Positions 1 to 6,683 of a DNA stretch of 44,017 nucleotides are shown one piece after another. The DNA is from Petrotoga mexicana DSM 14811 (GTDB lineage Bacteria > Thermotogota > Thermotogae > Petrotogales > Petrotogaceae). The stretch spans positions 1-44,017 of the forward strand of contig NZ_AZRN01000008.1 in the NCBI RefSeq assembly GCF_002895565.1. The letters are read 5' to 3'. The notes below the pieces were generated by a model, which saw only the letters and a list, made by a program, of their open reading frames with translations, did no database searches and had not been told where the DNA came from. The first letter of the stretch is position 1, and each line of letters starts with the position of its first letter. A program made the translations under genes and the position numbers.

Positions 1-21
1 TAATAATAATAATAATAATAA
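1..21. repeat. (TAA)7 trinucleotide repeat
   Basis: Seven perfect TAA units open the window. In the frame of the following fliK gene they read AAT codons, so they encode a poly-asparagine run that begins outside the window. Such a tract can change length by slippage while keeping the frame. Only the right-hand end is visible, so its full length is unknown. Confidence 0.9.
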
Positions 22-3000
22 CGATTCTAACAAATTTTTAATTAAAACTGACGAAAAATCAAACAATGAATTATTAGTTACATTGAATATGAATGATTCG
101 AAAGATTTAATAATTTCAAACACTAAAAAAGCAAAAAGCATTCATTTGGACGTTGATCAATTACTTTTACTCATAGAAACTTCTATAAAAAACACTAAAG
201 ACATCGATCAAAAGGAATTATTAACCCAAGCCCAAAAAATATTGTCTTCTCCTAAAACAGAGTTTACAGAGGACGACCTAGAAGTACTTCAAAAAGCCTT
301 AAGCATTATCACAAAAGAAAGCAAAGATAGTAAGGGTAGCAATAGTGAAATACCTTTAGAAGGTTTAATTAAGCATTCTAAATCCACAAAAGAAACTCCC
401 CCCACGCTGTCACAAAACAGCCTTGATTCAAAAGGTTCACAAGAAACCAATCAAATTCTTCAATCCGACATTCGAAAATTGTTACAGTTAACAGAAGAAA
501 GCTTAGAAAGTGTAAAAAACAAAGATGAAATCAATACATTAGAGCAAGCCCAAAAAATATTATCTTCTCCTAAAACAAAATTTACAAGGTCTGAACTAGA
601 GACATTACAAAAAGCATTTAGCATTATCATAAAAGAAAACAAAGTCATTCAGAGTAGTAATAGTGAAGAAAGTAAGGCTAATAAAAGTCAAATACCTTCA
701 GAAGGTTTAATTAAGCCTTCTAAATTTACAGAAAAAGATCCCACCATTATGTTACAAAGAAAACTTCCTTCAAATGGTTCCCAAAGAACCAACCAAATTG
801 TCAACTCTGATATCCGAGAATTATTATCTACAATACAAGAAAGCTCAAAAAATACAGAAAACAAAAACGAATTCAACAAAAGCGCTAATGGCATCGATGG
901 CAAAGAATTATTAAATCAAGCCCAAGAAACAGGGGCTCCAACTAAAATCCAGTTTACAGAAGAAGATAAAAGAGAGTTATTAATTCAGGCACAAAAAATA
1001 TTATCTTCTCCTAAAACTGAGTTTACAAAGGCTGAACTAGAGACATTACAAAAAGCCTTAAGCATAATCATAAAAGAAATTAAAGATAGTCAGCCCATTA
1101 ACAATGAACTACCTTCAGAAGGTTTAATTAAGCATTCTAAATTTACAGAAAAAGATCCCACCATTTTGTCACAAAACAGCCTCGATTCAAAAGCTTCACA
1201 AGAAGCCGATCAGATTGTCAACCCTGATATCCAAAAATTATTACAATTAATAGAAGAAAGCTCAAAAAATACAGAAAACAAAGATGAAATCAATTTAGAA
1301 GAAGCCCAGAAAATACTAATTTCTTCGAAACCTGAACTCACGAAAGAAGATAAAAGAGAGTTGTTAATTCAAGCTCAAAAAATATTGTCTTCTCCTAAAA
1401 CAGAGTTTACAAAGGCTGAACTAGAGACATTACAAAAAGCCTTAAGCATAATCATAAAAGAAAATAAAGTCATTCAGAGTAGTGATAGTGAAGAAAGTAA
1501 GGCTAATAAAAGTCAAATACCTTCAGAAGGTTTAATTAAGCATTCTAATTCCATAGAAGAAACTTCTCCTACTTTGTCACAAAAAAATCTCCATTTAAAA
1601 GACTCACAAGAAGCCAATCAGATTGTAAACTCTGATATCCAAAAATTATTATCTACAATACAAGAAAGCTCAAAAAGTATAGAAAGCAAAAATGAAATCA
1701 ATACACTAGAGCAAGCTCAAAAAATATTGTCTTCTCCTAAAACAGAGTTTACAAAGGCTGAACTAGAGACATTACAAAAAGCATTTAGCATTATCATAAA
1801 AGAAAACAAAGTCATTCAGAGTAGTGATAGTGAAGAAAGTAAGGCTAATAAAAGTCAAATACCTTCAGAAGGTTTAATTAAGCATTCTAATTCCATAGAA
1901 GAAAGTCCCAATACTATGTTACAAAACAACCTCGATTCAAAAGGTTCACAAGAAACCACTCAGATTGTCAATCCTGATATCCAAAAATTATTACAATTAA
2001 TAGAAGAAAACTCAAAAAGTATAGAAAACAAAGATGAAATCAACACACTAGAACTATCCCAAACAATACTAAATTCTTCAAAAACCCAACCTATAAATGG
2101 AGATAAAAAAGAGTTATTAATTGAAGCACAAAAAATATTATCTTCCTCTAAAACAACATTTACACCTGAGGAATTAAATATAATTAAAACTGCTCTTGGT
2201 ATAACTACCAATAATAATCCAAAGGCAGGAAAACCTTCATCAAATACAATAGGAGAAACAACTTTTATAGCCAATTCCTTGATTAAGGGAAACATTGATA
2301 AAACAAAGAATAATAAAACTGAGAATAATAATTCTATAAAATCAAAACAATTTGATCAGAAAGCAGAGATTTCAAACACAAAAAACAACCTTGGTAAGAA
2401 TGTGTATTTTGATCCTTATGAAACCAGAAAAAGCAACATCAATAAAGATAAAAACTCTGATTTACAAAAAGATAATACTGTTAAACTTACGCCACCTAGC
2501 AATTTAGAAGATACCAGCAAGAATTTAAATATCGAACAATTAAAAACCACTCAAAGTACTAATGAAATAGATTTAAAATCCTTACAAATCAACAAAAATA
2601 ATATACAAGACAGTATCCCTGCAACCAATCTAAAAGATTTAAACGCTCAAATAAAGGAAGTAATTATCTCCAAAAACACTCAAACTTTTTTAAACGAAAG
2701 TTTCTCAGTCAAAATATCTCCTCCAGAATTAGGAAAAGTCGATATTCAAATCTTAAAAAACGGGCAGGCTGTAACTGTTAACATATCAACGGAAACCGAA
2801 AACGCAAAAAATATTATATCAAAAACGTTACAATCTTTAGTTGGAAATTTAAGGGATGAAGGATACCAACCTATTAGTATAAAAGTGAATGTCACACAAG
2901 AAGAACATTATTTAGCCGATCAAAATCAACAACATCAACAAGAGCAAGAGCAGAAAAAATACCATGAAGAAGATCATAATGGCGATCAGTCAGAAGAAGG

Positions 3001-3049
3001 AACTTACTACACCTTTGATGAATATTTAAGGAGTGATTTGAATGCTTAA
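2..3049 (+). CDS. fliK: Flagellar hook-length control protein FliK, 5'-truncated by the window edge
   Basis: FliK is the secreted molecular ruler that sets hook length and switches the flagellar export gate from rod/hook to filament substrates. The C-terminal 150 or so residues show the FliK_C (Flg_hook) domain: a segment with SPPELGKVDIQI, followed by NISTETENAKN and LRDEGYQPISIKV, then a Gln/Glu/His-rich tail. Everything before it is low-complexity, Lys/Ser/Glu/Asn-rich and repetitive. A TTG at 83 could serve as a start, but the frame stays open leftwards to base 2 through a poly-Asn run, so I treat the gene as continuing beyond the window. At least 1015 residues are present, far more than the roughly 400 of enterobacterial FliK. 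The stop overlaps the flgD start by 8 bases, consistent with translational coupling in a hook operon. Identity rests on the C-terminal domain and the flgD-flgE context. Confidence 0.88.
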   Translation, partial: NNNNNNNDSNKFLIKTDEKSNNELLVTLNMNDSKDLIISNTKKAKSIHLDVDQLLLLIETSIKNTKDIDQKELLTQAQKILSSPKTEFTEDDLEVLQKALSIITKESKDSKGSNSEIPLEGLIKHSKSTKETPPTLSQNSLDSKGSQETNQILQSDIRKLLQLTEESLESVKNKDEINTLEQAQKILSSPKTKFTRSELETLQKAFSIIIKENKVIQSSNSEESKANKSQIPSEGLIKPSKFTEKDPTIMLQRKLPSNGSQRTNQIVNSDIRELLSTIQESSKNTENKNEFNKSANGIDGKELLNQAQETGAPTKIQFTEEDKRELLIQAQKILSSPKTEFTKAELETLQKALSIIIKEIKDSQPINNELPSEGLIKHSKFTEKDPTILSQNSLDSKASQEADQIVNPDIQKLLQLIEESSKNTENKDEINLEEAQKILISSKPELTKEDKRELLIQAQKILSSPKTEFTKAELETLQKALSIIIKENKVIQSSDSEESKANKSQIPSEGLIKHSNSIEETSPTLSQKNLHLKDSQEANQIVNSDIQKLLSTIQESSKSIESKNEINTLEQAQKILSSPKTEFTKAELETLQKAFSIIIKENKVIQSSDSEESKANKSQIPSEGLIKHSNSIEESPNTMLQNNLDSKGSQETTQIVNPDIQKLLQLIEENSKSIENKDEINTLELSQTILNSSKTQPINGDKKELLIEAQKILSSSKTTFTPEELNIIKTALGITTNNNPKAGKPSSNTIGETTFIANSLIKGNIDKTKNNKTENNNSIKSKQFDQKAEISNTKNNLGKNVYFDPYETRKSNINKDKNSDLQKDNTVKLTPPSNLEDTSKNLNIEQLKTTQSTNEIDLKSLQINKNNIQDSIPATNLKDLNAQIKEVIISKNTQTFLNESFSVKISPPELGKVDIQILKNGQAVTVNISTETENAKNIISKTLQSLVGNLRDEGYQPISIKVNVTQEEHYLADQNQQHQQEQEQKKYHEEDHNGDQSEEGTYYTFDEYLRSDLNA
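120..2215 (+). repeat. Six-fold internal repeat in the FliK ruler region
   Basis: A 34-residue motif built around QAQKILSSPKT and ending near LQKALSIIIKE occurs six times. Its DNA cores lie near 231, 547, 990, 1372, 1714 and 2127. Between the cores, two other segments also recur: one around IQKLLQLIEESSK, and one with IPSEGLIKHS followed by a Ser/Gln-rich stretch. Spacing varies from about 315 to 440 bases. Copies at about 1372-1560 and 1714-1900 are almost identical at the DNA level, with only a few differences, which points to recent duplication or gene conversion. In-frame gain or loss of units would lengthen or shorten the predicted ruler. Confidence 0.85.
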
Positions 3050-3704
3050 CTCAGTATCGATGGATTCTATATATCAAAGTACATATGATGCAAAAAAAGA
3101 CAGAGAAATCAAAAAAGAATTAGACAAAGAAGCTTTTTTACAACTGTTGATTACAGAATTACAAAACCAAGATCCAACACAACCGATGGAAAACAAAGAT
3201 CTTGTAGCTCAGCTTTCACAGCTTTCTTCCACTGAACAAATAACCAATATGAGCCAGGCAATTCAGGAAATGGTTAACTCCCAAATGTCGCTCAATAAAT
3301 TGCAAGCTGCAAGCTTGATTGGAAAAACTGTTGTAGTGAATGACAACACTATTGACTTGCAAAGTGGGGTAGCAGAAGGATTAAACTATGGATTAGATAA
3401 CAGCTCCCAAGTATATTTAGAGATTTACAATTCAAATGGACAATTAGTTTACGCAGAAGATTTAGGCATGCAAGAAGCAGGCTTACACTCATATGTCTGG
3501 AGCGGAAGAAACAACGATGGAACTATGATGCCTGATGGAGAATATCTCTATGGAATTTACACTATAGAAAATGGTCAAATGGTAGCAAATACCGGTGTAA
3601 AAACTGGAATTGTCGAAGCCGTAAAGTTCTTAGACAATGAACTTTACCTACTTATCAACGGTGAAATGTATCCTTATTCGGTAGTGAATGAGATTAGCGC
3701 CTAA
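3042..3704 (+). CDS. flgD: Flagellar hook assembly scaffold FlgD
   Basis: FlgD caps the growing hook and is needed for FlgE polymerisation outside the cell. The 220-residue protein has the classic N-terminal signature: FLQLLITELQNQDPTQPM, then a Gln/Leu/Ser-rich SQLSSTEQI segment at about residues 30-65. After it come the beta-rich FLG/Tudor-like domains with the SGRNNDGTMMPDGEYLYGIY motif near residues 150-170, typical of the FlgD Ig-like fold. Length is normal for the family. An AAGGAG lies 7 bases before the ATG, and the start overlaps the end of fliK by 8 bases. flgE follows after a short AT-rich gap, giving the usual fliK-flgD-flgE order. Confidence 0.95.
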   Translation: MLNSVSMDSIYQSTYDAKKDREIKKELDKEAFLQLLITELQNQDPTQPMENKDLVAQLSQLSSTEQITNMSQAIQEMVNSQMSLNKLQAASLIGKTVVVNDNTIDLQSGVAEGLNYGLDNSSQVYLEIYNSNGQLVYAEDLGMQEAGLHSYVWSGRNNDGTMMPDGEYLYGIYTIENGQMVANTGVKTGIVEAVKFLDNELYLLINGEMYPYSVVNEISA

Positions 3705-3746: not shown

Positions 3747-6683
3747 ATGCTGGGATCAATTTACTCTGGAATCACAGGTTTAAGGAATTTTCAGGATCAA
3801 CTCGACATAGTTGCAAACAATATCGCTAACGTTAATACAGTAGGCTACAAAGGTTCAAGGGCAACATTTCAAACACTGCTTTTTCAAAACTTACGTTCAG
3901 GAATCGCACCTCAAAACCAATTAGGTGGGGTAAACCCCATGCAAATTGGAGCAGGATCACAATTAGCTTCTATAGACAAAATAATGACACAAGGTTCTCC
4001 TATGTCTACAGGTAAAGTTACCGATCTTATGATTCAAGGGGAAGGCTTTTTTATACTTTCAGATGGAACAGATCAATACTATACACGAGCAGGCAACTTT
4101 ACTAGAGATTACAACGGTTTCTTTTTAGAACCAGCAACCGGCATGAAATTACAAGGTTGGACAGCACAAGTTGATGAAGAAGGAAATAGGTTCATTGATA
4201 CCAACGAACCCATAGGAAATATCCAAGTGTCAGCCAATCAAATAATGGAGGCGACAGAAACATCTTTTGTAGCTCTCGCAAATAATTTAAACGCTGGTGT
4301 AGGTATCCAGGACACAACAATCGTCGTTAAGAGTGCAACAGGTGAAAGTATACCCATCAAATTTTCTTTCACAAGGGATATGAGTAGCGAAGAAAACAAG
4401 GATAAAAATGTTTACAATTGGACGGCAAGTGTAGTTGGTTCTGATTACAAATTCGCAGTTGACGATGGTTCGGGCAATTTAACTTCAACTACCCAAATTA
4501 GCGGAAAAGTTGAGCTTGACGATACGGGAAATGTAATTAATTGGGTTAATTACGATAGCAATGGAGTCGCTATAGATAGTAGTAAGATTTCAATTTTTGA
4601 CATAAACGGTGAAATAGTCGATGGAAACGGCGCCCCTGTTTCTCTAGGGGCTTCAGTCCCAGTTTCTGCAAGCCTCGAAGGAAGTATTAGTGTAGTAGAC
4701 AAAGATAACAAAGCGGTTTATTATGATCCAACTAGTACAAAAGTTTCTTTTATCGATACTGATAATGATGGCTATGCAGATCGAGTTAAAATAACTTTGA
4801 CCACGGAAGATGGTGATAGTTTAACTTTTGAAAAAGATGAAGCCGATTTTGCAATTGAATCTGCAGATGGAAAAATTACGATTGGTGAATTCAAAAGTTT
4901 ACTGTCAAAGGGAATAGAGCATAAGGTTGTCAATGACACTGTAGATTACACCCTCAAAGGGTTGAATCTGACAGGAGGCACAGATACAGATATTCTCACT
5001 ATTCAGACTATTTCCGACCTAAAATCCGAGATTGACCCTAAATCTGTAATTACATCTGCTTTAGTTCCTGCAACCCTGGAGGGAAGTATTAGTATGACAA
5101 ACGGATCTGGAGATCCGGTTTATTTTCCTCCGCAAAATATAACAGTTGAGTTTAAAGATACGGATAGTAACGGCAATGCAGATCAAGTTAAGATAATTCT
5201 AAAGGATTCAAACGATACTAAGTGGACTTTTACAAAAGATGAAGCCGACTTTGCAATTGGAACTGCAGATGGAGAAATTACAATTGAAGAATTCAACGAT
5301 TTATTATCAAATGGAATAACAGATACGAGTAGCACTTACACCCTCAAAGGATTGCAGCTTACAGGAGGAGACCTTTCAGATACTATCGATGTTCAGGTTC
5401 TTGATGGCGTACAATCTGTTGGTGTCCCTGTTCCTGCAGACGCCGCTACTCCTGTTTCTTCAAACCTCACAGGAAGCATTGGTGTTACAGATAACACAAC
5501 GGGAGAAACGGTTTATTATGATCCCGAAGATATTGATATTGAGTTTGTAGGTACTGAAGTTTCGATAACACTCACCAAGAAAGATGAAACTCCTTTAACT
5601 TTTACAGTCGATGCAACCTCCTTTGGAGATAATAATGGAAAATTTTCAATTGAAGAATTCAACGATTTATTGTCAGAGGGGATAAAAGATGTCACTAATT
5701 TTTATACCCTTACAGGGTTACGATTAGTTGGAGACTCAGATACATATATTGTCAATAATCAGTCTCTTTCCGACTTAAAATCTGTCAGAGAGGTAATTCA
5801 ACCACCTTCAGGTGGAGCAATAAGGTTCACAGATCTCAACAACCCAACCAACTTTTCAGAAGCTGAGTATGTAAACCCATCTGTTACAACGTCAACCGTA
5901 GTATACGATTCTCTTGGTAATCCTTACAATGCCTATTTGAAATTCTCAAAAATAGATGCCAACACTTGGTATTGGAAGGCAGAATTAGAAGATGGGCACC
6001 CATTATTTAAAAGTACCGCCGATGGTCAGTTACTCGACGATCCCGCCGAAGGGGTAATTGCTTTTGATTCAAACGGTAACATAGCTGCAACTCAATGGAA
6101 AATCAACCCTGACGGTACCATAGATCAAGATCTCAAAGATGGCGATAATGGAGCAGCAGGTTTCTGGTTTGACCCAGCAAAGGTGGGAGCTGCTTTAAAT
6201 GAGGAGGTTGATCCCGAATCAGCAGCGGCTGCAGGTCCCGTTAACGTTTCGATTAATTTCCAAGAACTCACTCAGTTTTTTGCAGAAAATTCTATAGCGG
6301 TTACCGAACAAGATGGAAATGCCCAAGGAACTTTAGAATCTTTTGCTATAGATAACAATGGACTTATTATAGCGTCTTTCACAAACGGTTTAACAGCCCC
6401 ATTAGGGCAAATTGCCTTAGCCACTTTTAACAACCCTGAAGGTTTATCAGCTACGGGTAACTCTATGTACGCTTTGAGCCCAAACAGTGGAACTCCTCAA
6501 ATAGGTATTTCTGGAGTTGGGGGAAGAGGTAGTATCAATTCAGGAGCTTTGGAAATGTCGAATGTGGATTTGGCAGAAGAGTTCACCAACATGATCATAG
6601 CTCAAAGAGGATTCCAAGCAAATTCAAGGAGTATAACTACGGCAGATGCGATCCTTAATGAAATTATAAACATCAAGAGATAA
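3747..6683 (+). CDS. flgE: Flagellar hook protein FlgE, enlarged form with a repeat insertion
   Basis: FlgE builds the curved hook joining basal body to filament. The N-terminus has the conserved D0 helix with LDIVANNIANVNTVGYK (about residues 19-35). The C-terminus has the matching helix with LAEEFTNMIIAQRGFQANS and a TADAILNEII ending, so both polymerisation ends are intact. The protein is 978 residues, more than twice the roughly 400 of enteric FlgE. The extra length is a central insertion (about residues 300-680) of three tandem units of roughly 110-130 residues. Each contains a GSI-V-YY/YF strand segment, a DxDxDG-like or related loop, an EF-hand-like loop ending in EEF or GEF, and a YTLKGL segment. 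This insertion would sit in the surface-exposed D2/D3 region of the hook. The start is supported by an AGGAGGA Shine-Dalgarno 7-8 bases upstream. Confidence 0.93.
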   Translation: MLGSIYSGITGLRNFQDQLDIVANNIANVNTVGYKGSRATFQTLLFQNLRSGIAPQNQLGGVNPMQIGAGSQLASIDKIMTQGSPMSTGKVTDLMIQGEGFFILSDGTDQYYTRAGNFTRDYNGFFLEPATGMKLQGWTAQVDEEGNRFIDTNEPIGNIQVSANQIMEATETSFVALANNLNAGVGIQDTTIVVKSATGESIPIKFSFTRDMSSEENKDKNVYNWTASVVGSDYKFAVDDGSGNLTSTTQISGKVELDDTGNVINWVNYDSNGVAIDSSKISIFDINGEIVDGNGAPVSLGASVPVSASLEGSISVVDKDNKAVYYDPTSTKVSFIDTDNDGYADRVKITLTTEDGDSLTFEKDEADFAIESADGKITIGEFKSLLSKGIEHKVVNDTVDYTLKGLNLTGGTDTDILTIQTISDLKSEIDPKSVITSALVPATLEGSISMTNGSGDPVYFPPQNITVEFKDTDSNGNADQVKIILKDSNDTKWTFTKDEADFAIGTADGEITIEEFNDLLSNGITDTSSTYTLKGLQLTGGDLSDTIDVQVLDGVQSVGVPVPADAATPVSSNLTGSIGVTDNTTGETVYYDPEDIDIEFVGTEVSITLTKKDETPLTFTVDATSFGDNNGKFSIEEFNDLLSEGIKDVTNFYTLTGLRLVGDSDTYIVNNQSLSDLKSVREVIQPPSGGAIRFTDLNNPTNFSEAEYVNPSVTTSTVVYDSLGNPYNAYLKFSKIDANTWYWKAELEDGHPLFKSTADGQLLDDPAEGVIAFDSNGNIAATQWKINPDGTIDQDLKDGDNGAAGFWFDPAKVGAALNEEVDPESAAAAGPVNVSINFQELTQFFAENSIAVTEQDGNAQGTLESFAIDNNGLIIASFTNGLTAPLGQIALATFNNPEGLSATGNSMYALSPNSGTPQIGISGVGGRGSINSGALEMSNVDLAEEFTNMIIAQRGFQANSRSITTADAILNEIINIKR
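4656..5781 (+). repeat. Three tandem EF-hand-like modules within FlgE
   Basis: Units cover about FlgE residues 304-435, 440-565 and 569-679. Shared landmarks are a PVSxxLxGSI opening, a DxDxDG-type run (DTDNDGYAD in unit 1, DTDSNGNAD in unit 2, lost in unit 3), a loop such as ESADGKITIGEF, a YTLKGLxLTGG segment and an SDLKS or related ending. The loops match the EF-hand spacing at positions 5 or 6 (D or N, then G), 8 (I or F) and 12 (E), but position 1 is I or F rather than D. Calcium binding is therefore possible but degenerate. Units 1 and 2 are the most alike. Confidence 0.8.

Follow-up and report, generated by a model that had tools for sequence, protein, structure and literature searches.

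Among the closest described counterparts of the protein considered here is FlgE of Campylobacter jejuni, in which domains D3 and D4 widen the hook (280 Å versus 180 Å) and provide added contacts within and between protofilaments (PMC5097172). When D3/D4 were moved into Salmonella FlgE, the resulting chimera formed a hook of larger diameter, which was functional (PMC5069557). As to hook length, in Salmonella the hook grows by 0.2 nm per residue added to FliK, and the longer hooks are less stiff (PMC6126814). Calcium loops of the Dx[DN]xDG type, with an acidic residue two residues further on, occur in many folds, including strand-loop-strand arrangements (PMC3123361), and no description of such a loop in hook proteins was found in the literature searched. 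The same search returned no paper dealing with Petrotoga and FlgE together, with FlgE and domain duplication, or with Thermotoga flagella and EF-hands.

The hook locus and the tandem modules of FlgE

The window, i.e., the whole analysed stretch of 44,017 nucleotides, is contig 8 of the 2.13 Mb genome of Petrotoga mexicana DSM 14811, and its hook genes lie in the order fliK-flgD-flgE (Table 1). ORFs matching flgD were found in the same position in relatives. The ORF of 978 amino acids is FlgE, possessing the N- and C-terminal rod/hook domains together with D1 and D2: in the Pfam scan Flg_bb_rod, LlgE_F_G_D1, FlgE_D2 and Flg_bbr_C all scored above the cut-off, and the nearest solved chain was Campylobacter FlgE (5jxl, E 1.3e-53).

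Table 1. Features of the hook locus in the window, with the two-module homologues from another family in the last row
Feature	Residues	Position	Strand	Basis or remark
fliK, hook-length control protein with tandem repeats		2..3049	+	Flg_hook Pfam 47.8 bits; open at the left edge of the window
flgD, hook-cap protein		3042..3704	+	ORF between fliK and flgE; named by its place among the genes and by sequence similarity
flgE, flagellar hook protein, 978 aa		3747..6683	+	four Pfam domains and closest solved chain 5jxl
Module unit 1, extra copy	305-437	4659..5057	+	alignment to units 2 and 3; profile E 6.5e-31; AF2 pLDDT 82.5
DTDNDGYAD, unit 1, Dx[DN]xDGxxD loop of calcium type, flanked by two strands	337-345	4755..4781	+	sequence
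IESADGKITIGEF, unit 1, incomplete EF-type loop, position 1 Ile	370-382	4854..4892	+	
Module unit 2, extra copy	438-568	5058..5450	+	alignment; profile E 2.4e-33
DTDSNGNAD, unit 2, Asn variant of the unit 1 loop	471-479	5157..5183	+	sequence
IGTADGEITIEEF, unit 2, incomplete EF-type loop, position 1 Ile	504-516	5256..5294	+	
Module unit 3, orthologue of the single module of relatives	569-680	5451..5786	+	shared sequence and junction with congener FlgE; profile E 1.1e-34
FGDNNGKFSIEEF, unit 3, incomplete EF-type loop, position 1 Phe; D3, N5, G6 and E12 present	626-638	5622..5660	+	
Two-module FlgE of G043/G044 with complete EF-type loops		L189 1503-2309; L197 (G044:C275:1500-5000)		

Three tandem modules had been proposed from inspection of the letters at 4656-5781, and the alignment reproduced them with nearly the same borders. 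At the protein level the units are pairwise 50, 49 and 45% identical, their alignment scores (266, 204 and 198) being set against maxima of 64-89 for shuffled sequences, and a profile of the module matched exactly three places genome-wide, all of them within FlgE. The units share only 65-68% identity in their DNA, which rules out both a recent origin of the duplications and an artefact from assembling identical repeats. All three units retain the pattern GSI, YxxP and TLxGLxL, and the frame is open throughout. The modules also explain the size of the protein, as had been suggested, since the FlgE of same-genus genomes comprises 702-707 amino acids with one module and 587 with none.

The insert as a whole is acidic (18% D+E, net charge -43), variable and presumably exposed, which would suit an adhesive or shielding hook surface; yet no convincing match to any adhesin or carbohydrate-binding family was obtained, and we give this explanation very little credence. 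The results showed no link to adhesion or to life in brine, for which such a hook had been suggested, and the congeners get by with 0 or 1 module.

Copy number among relatives and origin of the units

Each of the 20 other family genomes has a FlgE that matches the one in the window. Eighteen of them have one copy of the module, one has a single copy plus a weak second match, and one has none; within the family three copies occur in the source genome (G000) only. Phylum-wide, the module was detected in 23 of 103 genomes and, where checked, it was confined to FlgE. The comparison of unit number called for by the original prediction thus gave 0, 1 or 3 copies within the genus. In the same-genus genome G004, the 587-residue FlgE (L134) has zero modules and the sequence resumes cleanly at REVIQPPSGG, which makes this protein a natural deletion control. 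The same hook core carrying 0, 1 or 3 modules in one genus represents a natural dose series, which bears on the effect of insert domains on hook thickness, stiffness and swimming.

The single module of the congeners matched unit 3 best and shares with it the inner sequence NTTGETVYYDPEDIDI and the junction SDLKSVRE.IQPPSGG; therefore the copies added later are units 1 and 2. Unit 3 had been described as degenerating, but it is the very copy orthologous to the module of relatives, and nothing in the relatives suggests that unit 3 once possessed a DxDxDG run. In the module tree, units 1-3 grouped together (support 85/81) and units 1 and 2 were paired (91/80); these supports are moderate, and the grouping points to a lineage-specific duplication of the units. 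Duplication of the module recurs in other lineages as well: two clear tandem modules are present in the FlgE of G043 and G044, which belong to another family of the class, while the FlgE of G016 (L146) contains an extra upstream insert domain with a weak match to the module profile (E 2.2e-4; G016:C2:1987989-1988261), which may be an old second copy.

Such a distribution could also arise by neutral drift of copy number, the surface module being dispensable and varying from 0 to 3 copies with no functional effect. The zero copies of G004 agree with this explanation, as does the limited likeness of the units, at both the protein and the DNA level, which implies faster divergence in the insert than in the core. 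However, the common pattern and the open frame have persisted in all units despite their long divergence, suggesting that a folded domain is under selection, and the second copies in G043/G044 and, weakly, in G016 speak against drift too, so we regard it as unlikely. The data demonstrate that the triplication of this hook insert domain is genuine and specific to the lineage; its kind is ordinary, its copy number unusual.

The two loop types and their putative metal binding

The original prediction characterized the repeat as EF-hand-like, with a DGxIxxxEF loop in each unit and a DxDxDG-type run in two of them. As strings, both motifs are where they were said to be: [DN]Gx[IF]xxxEF occurs in 3/3 units and in 0/20 FlgE proteins of relatives, and DxDx[DN]G in two units. 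The run and the string are, nevertheless, two separate loops. An EF-hand was recognized by a 12-residue loop with oxygen ligands at positions 1, 3, 5, 7, 9 and 12, position 1 being Asp, by its location within a helix-loop-helix, usually paired, and by a Pfam score above the gathering cut-off. The ligand pattern was matched nowhere in the FlgE of the window. Counted back from Glu 12, the obligatory first ligand position is occupied by I370, I504 and F626, and position 3 is Ser/Thr in units 1 and 2; in unit 3, positions 3, 5, 6, 9 and 12 are filled. The Pfam EF-hand models reached at best 18.6 bits against the 25.4 cut-off, in a match that covered just the latter half of the motif; EF-hand_1 aligned to the latter half of the loop in unit 1 at E 0.0013.

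The structure prediction proposed together with the EF-hand claim did not return a helix-loop-helix either. The AF2 model of unit 1 (pLDDT 82.5), for which six aligned sequences were used, is beta-rich and is predicted to contain a single proper helix of 10 residues (379-388), which follows the EF-type loop, the loop being preceded by a strand and a four-residue helical turn only. The model of full-length FlgE (four rows, pLDDT 41.6) was discarded, so the modules are placed on the hook surface by analogy with other FlgE proteins; that model again had one helix per unit, at the EF-xxLL stretch. No match of the units to PDB sequences was found at E up to 10. Fold search with the unit 1 model using Foldseek and VIA-align gave no E below 0.001, and its top rows included several phage tail-sheath chains (best Z 4.1, below the meaningful level and not used further). 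Considering Ile, Ile and Phe at position 1, the one proper helix of the predicted secondary structure and the sub-cut-off Pfam score, the units are not EF-hands, and that reading was rejected.

A softer version of this explanation would have each DGxIxxxEF loop bind Ca2+ with non-canonical geometry, so that hook stability depends on calcium. It is favoured by the filled positions of unit 3, by the EF-hand_1 alignment in unit 1 and by the homologous site in G043 and G044, where the loops are DANGDSTLTISEF and DTNSDDTLTIDEF in the former and DANGDGTLTISEF and DTNGDDTLTIDEF in the latter. Ligands 1, 3, 5, 9 and 12 are present in 4/4 of these loops, in both tandem modules, and two or more such loops appeared in a fraction of 0.0008 of the shuffled G043 inserts, while Pfam made no EF-hand call for the G043 loops. 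Against it stand the residues at positions 1 and 3 in the window's FlgE, the predicted lack of an entering helix beyond the four-residue turn, the Pfam scores and the congeners, which at this site have merely a short turn preceding the same helix (TATGNTVGEFNNLL; TATGNTVGEFN). We consider such calcium-stabilised loops improbable in the FlgE of the window, and canonical calcium binding by them is unlikely. The EF interpretation fails for the protein it was proposed for, yet it is not groundless, the homologous site being a complete EF-type loop in two distant Thermotogota. The complete loops of G043/G044 are compatible with two histories: the EF-type loop may be an ancient calcium site that decayed in the Petrotoga branch, or it may have been gained in the G043/G044 branch. 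In the FlgE of the window, the DGxIxxxEF stretches are an incomplete version of the complete loop of these distant relatives, serving mainly to lead into the single helix. Calcium in the hook could be tested more sharply on the G043/G044 loops than on the FlgE of the window.

A different insert with an EF-like acidic loop (e.g., DDDGSGTIDASD) was observed in the FlgE of G010, G017, G018, G019 and G020 (L140, L147-L150); it is situated at residue ~317 (239 in the G020 reading frame), outside the helix site of the module. This loop pattern was not found in the FlgE of G014 or G016.

The best metal candidate in FlgE is the DxDxDGxxD loop, that of unit 1 being the stronger and that of unit 2 the weaker. 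Residues 337-345 of unit 1 comprise Dx[DN]xDG followed by a later acidic residue (D345), while in unit 2 the third ligand position is taken by Asn, and unit 3 has no loop of this type. The two loops are carried by the first hairpin, which is longer in units 1 and 2 than in unit 3. Among 21 FlgE proteins DxDxDGxxD was found in these two units only (0/20 related proteins), and in the shuffled insert it arose by chance in 1.3% of cases. Judging from these residues, the loop of unit 1, and perhaps that of unit 2, could each hold one calcium ion and brace the beta-hairpin, a proposal that we put forward tentatively, as somewhat short of an even chance. What stands of the original prediction is a triplicate hook module, presumably exposed, with at least one credible metal loop (D337-D345), the EF-type loops being incomplete. 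If the unit 1 loop does bind calcium, the hook would possess a domain with ion-tunable stability.

FliK and the hook in comparison with known systems

The fliK gene contains a 342-bp tandem repeat at 1370-2052 (a repeat of ~114 amino acids). Its frame is open to the edge of the window, within a run of AAT (poly-Asn) codons, and the TTG start at position 83 assigned by the ORF caller is probably wrong. The N-terminus of fliK was located at the end of contig C14 (73176-73384), also stopping in AAT repeats, and we infer that the gene was split by the contig break between C14 and contig 8. Upon this inferred joining, FliK would comprise ~1,085 amino acids or more, versus 619-662 (stop to stop) in congeners, with ~7 repeats of the QKIL type versus three in 4/5 congeners.

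Since longer FliK-dependent hooks are less stiff and both proteins are enlarged here, the joint growth of FlgE and FliK is suggestive. The lengths of the two proteins showed no significant correlation over 15 genomes of the family (rho 0.28, p 0.31), owing to G006 and G015, which have a large FlgE and a short FliK; over 16 mixed loci rho was 0.69, a value confounded by phylogeny. A far-reaching version, in which repeats reshape the hook in both width and length, calcium-braced FlgE modules thickening it and ~440 additional FliK residues (~90 nm if each adds 0.2 nm) lengthening it so that length offsets stiffness, seems to us a long shot. Even so, with FliK enlarged alongside FlgE, it becomes testable whether the width and the length of the hook are linked.

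The reading we prefer, and hold to be likely, is that a Petrotogaceae hook module was duplicated twice in the source lineage, its copies forming outer layers that produce a thicker and stiffer hook. FlgE is in this view an ordinary hook protein with a variable central beta-rich module of ~100-130 residues in tandem copies. The modules would surround the conserved D0-D1-D2 tube as one or two additional layers, and the extra contacts between subunits would make the hook thicker and stiffer, in the manner of D3/D4 in Campylobacter. As central inserts of FlgE form outer layers, three serial modules should, by analogy, act in the same direction.

Compared with the Dx[DN]xDG calcium loops known outside EF-hands (PMC3123361), unit 1 likewise has D-x-D-x-D-G plus Asp between strands. 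The single-module FlgE of other Petrotogaceae (~700-720 amino acids) has the same module at the same junction, orthologous to unit 3, and differs in the one copy, the short turn replacing the DGxIxxxEF loop and the absence of the DxDxDG loop. The two-module FlgE of G043/G044 likewise has tandem copies of the homologous module, whereas both its loops are complete EF-type ones and its duplication was apparently separate. Between the window's insert and Campylobacter D3/D4 no sequence similarity was detected, the phmmer matches being located at the protein ends only. Campylobacter jejuni FlgE (5jxl; PMC5097172, PMC5069557) nevertheless also combines conserved ends with a variable central region bearing large extra domains, and its D3/D4 form outer layers by which the hook becomes thicker and stiffer, as would be expected for the FlgE of the window, whose extra domains, in distinction from those of Campylobacter, are tandem copies of one module.
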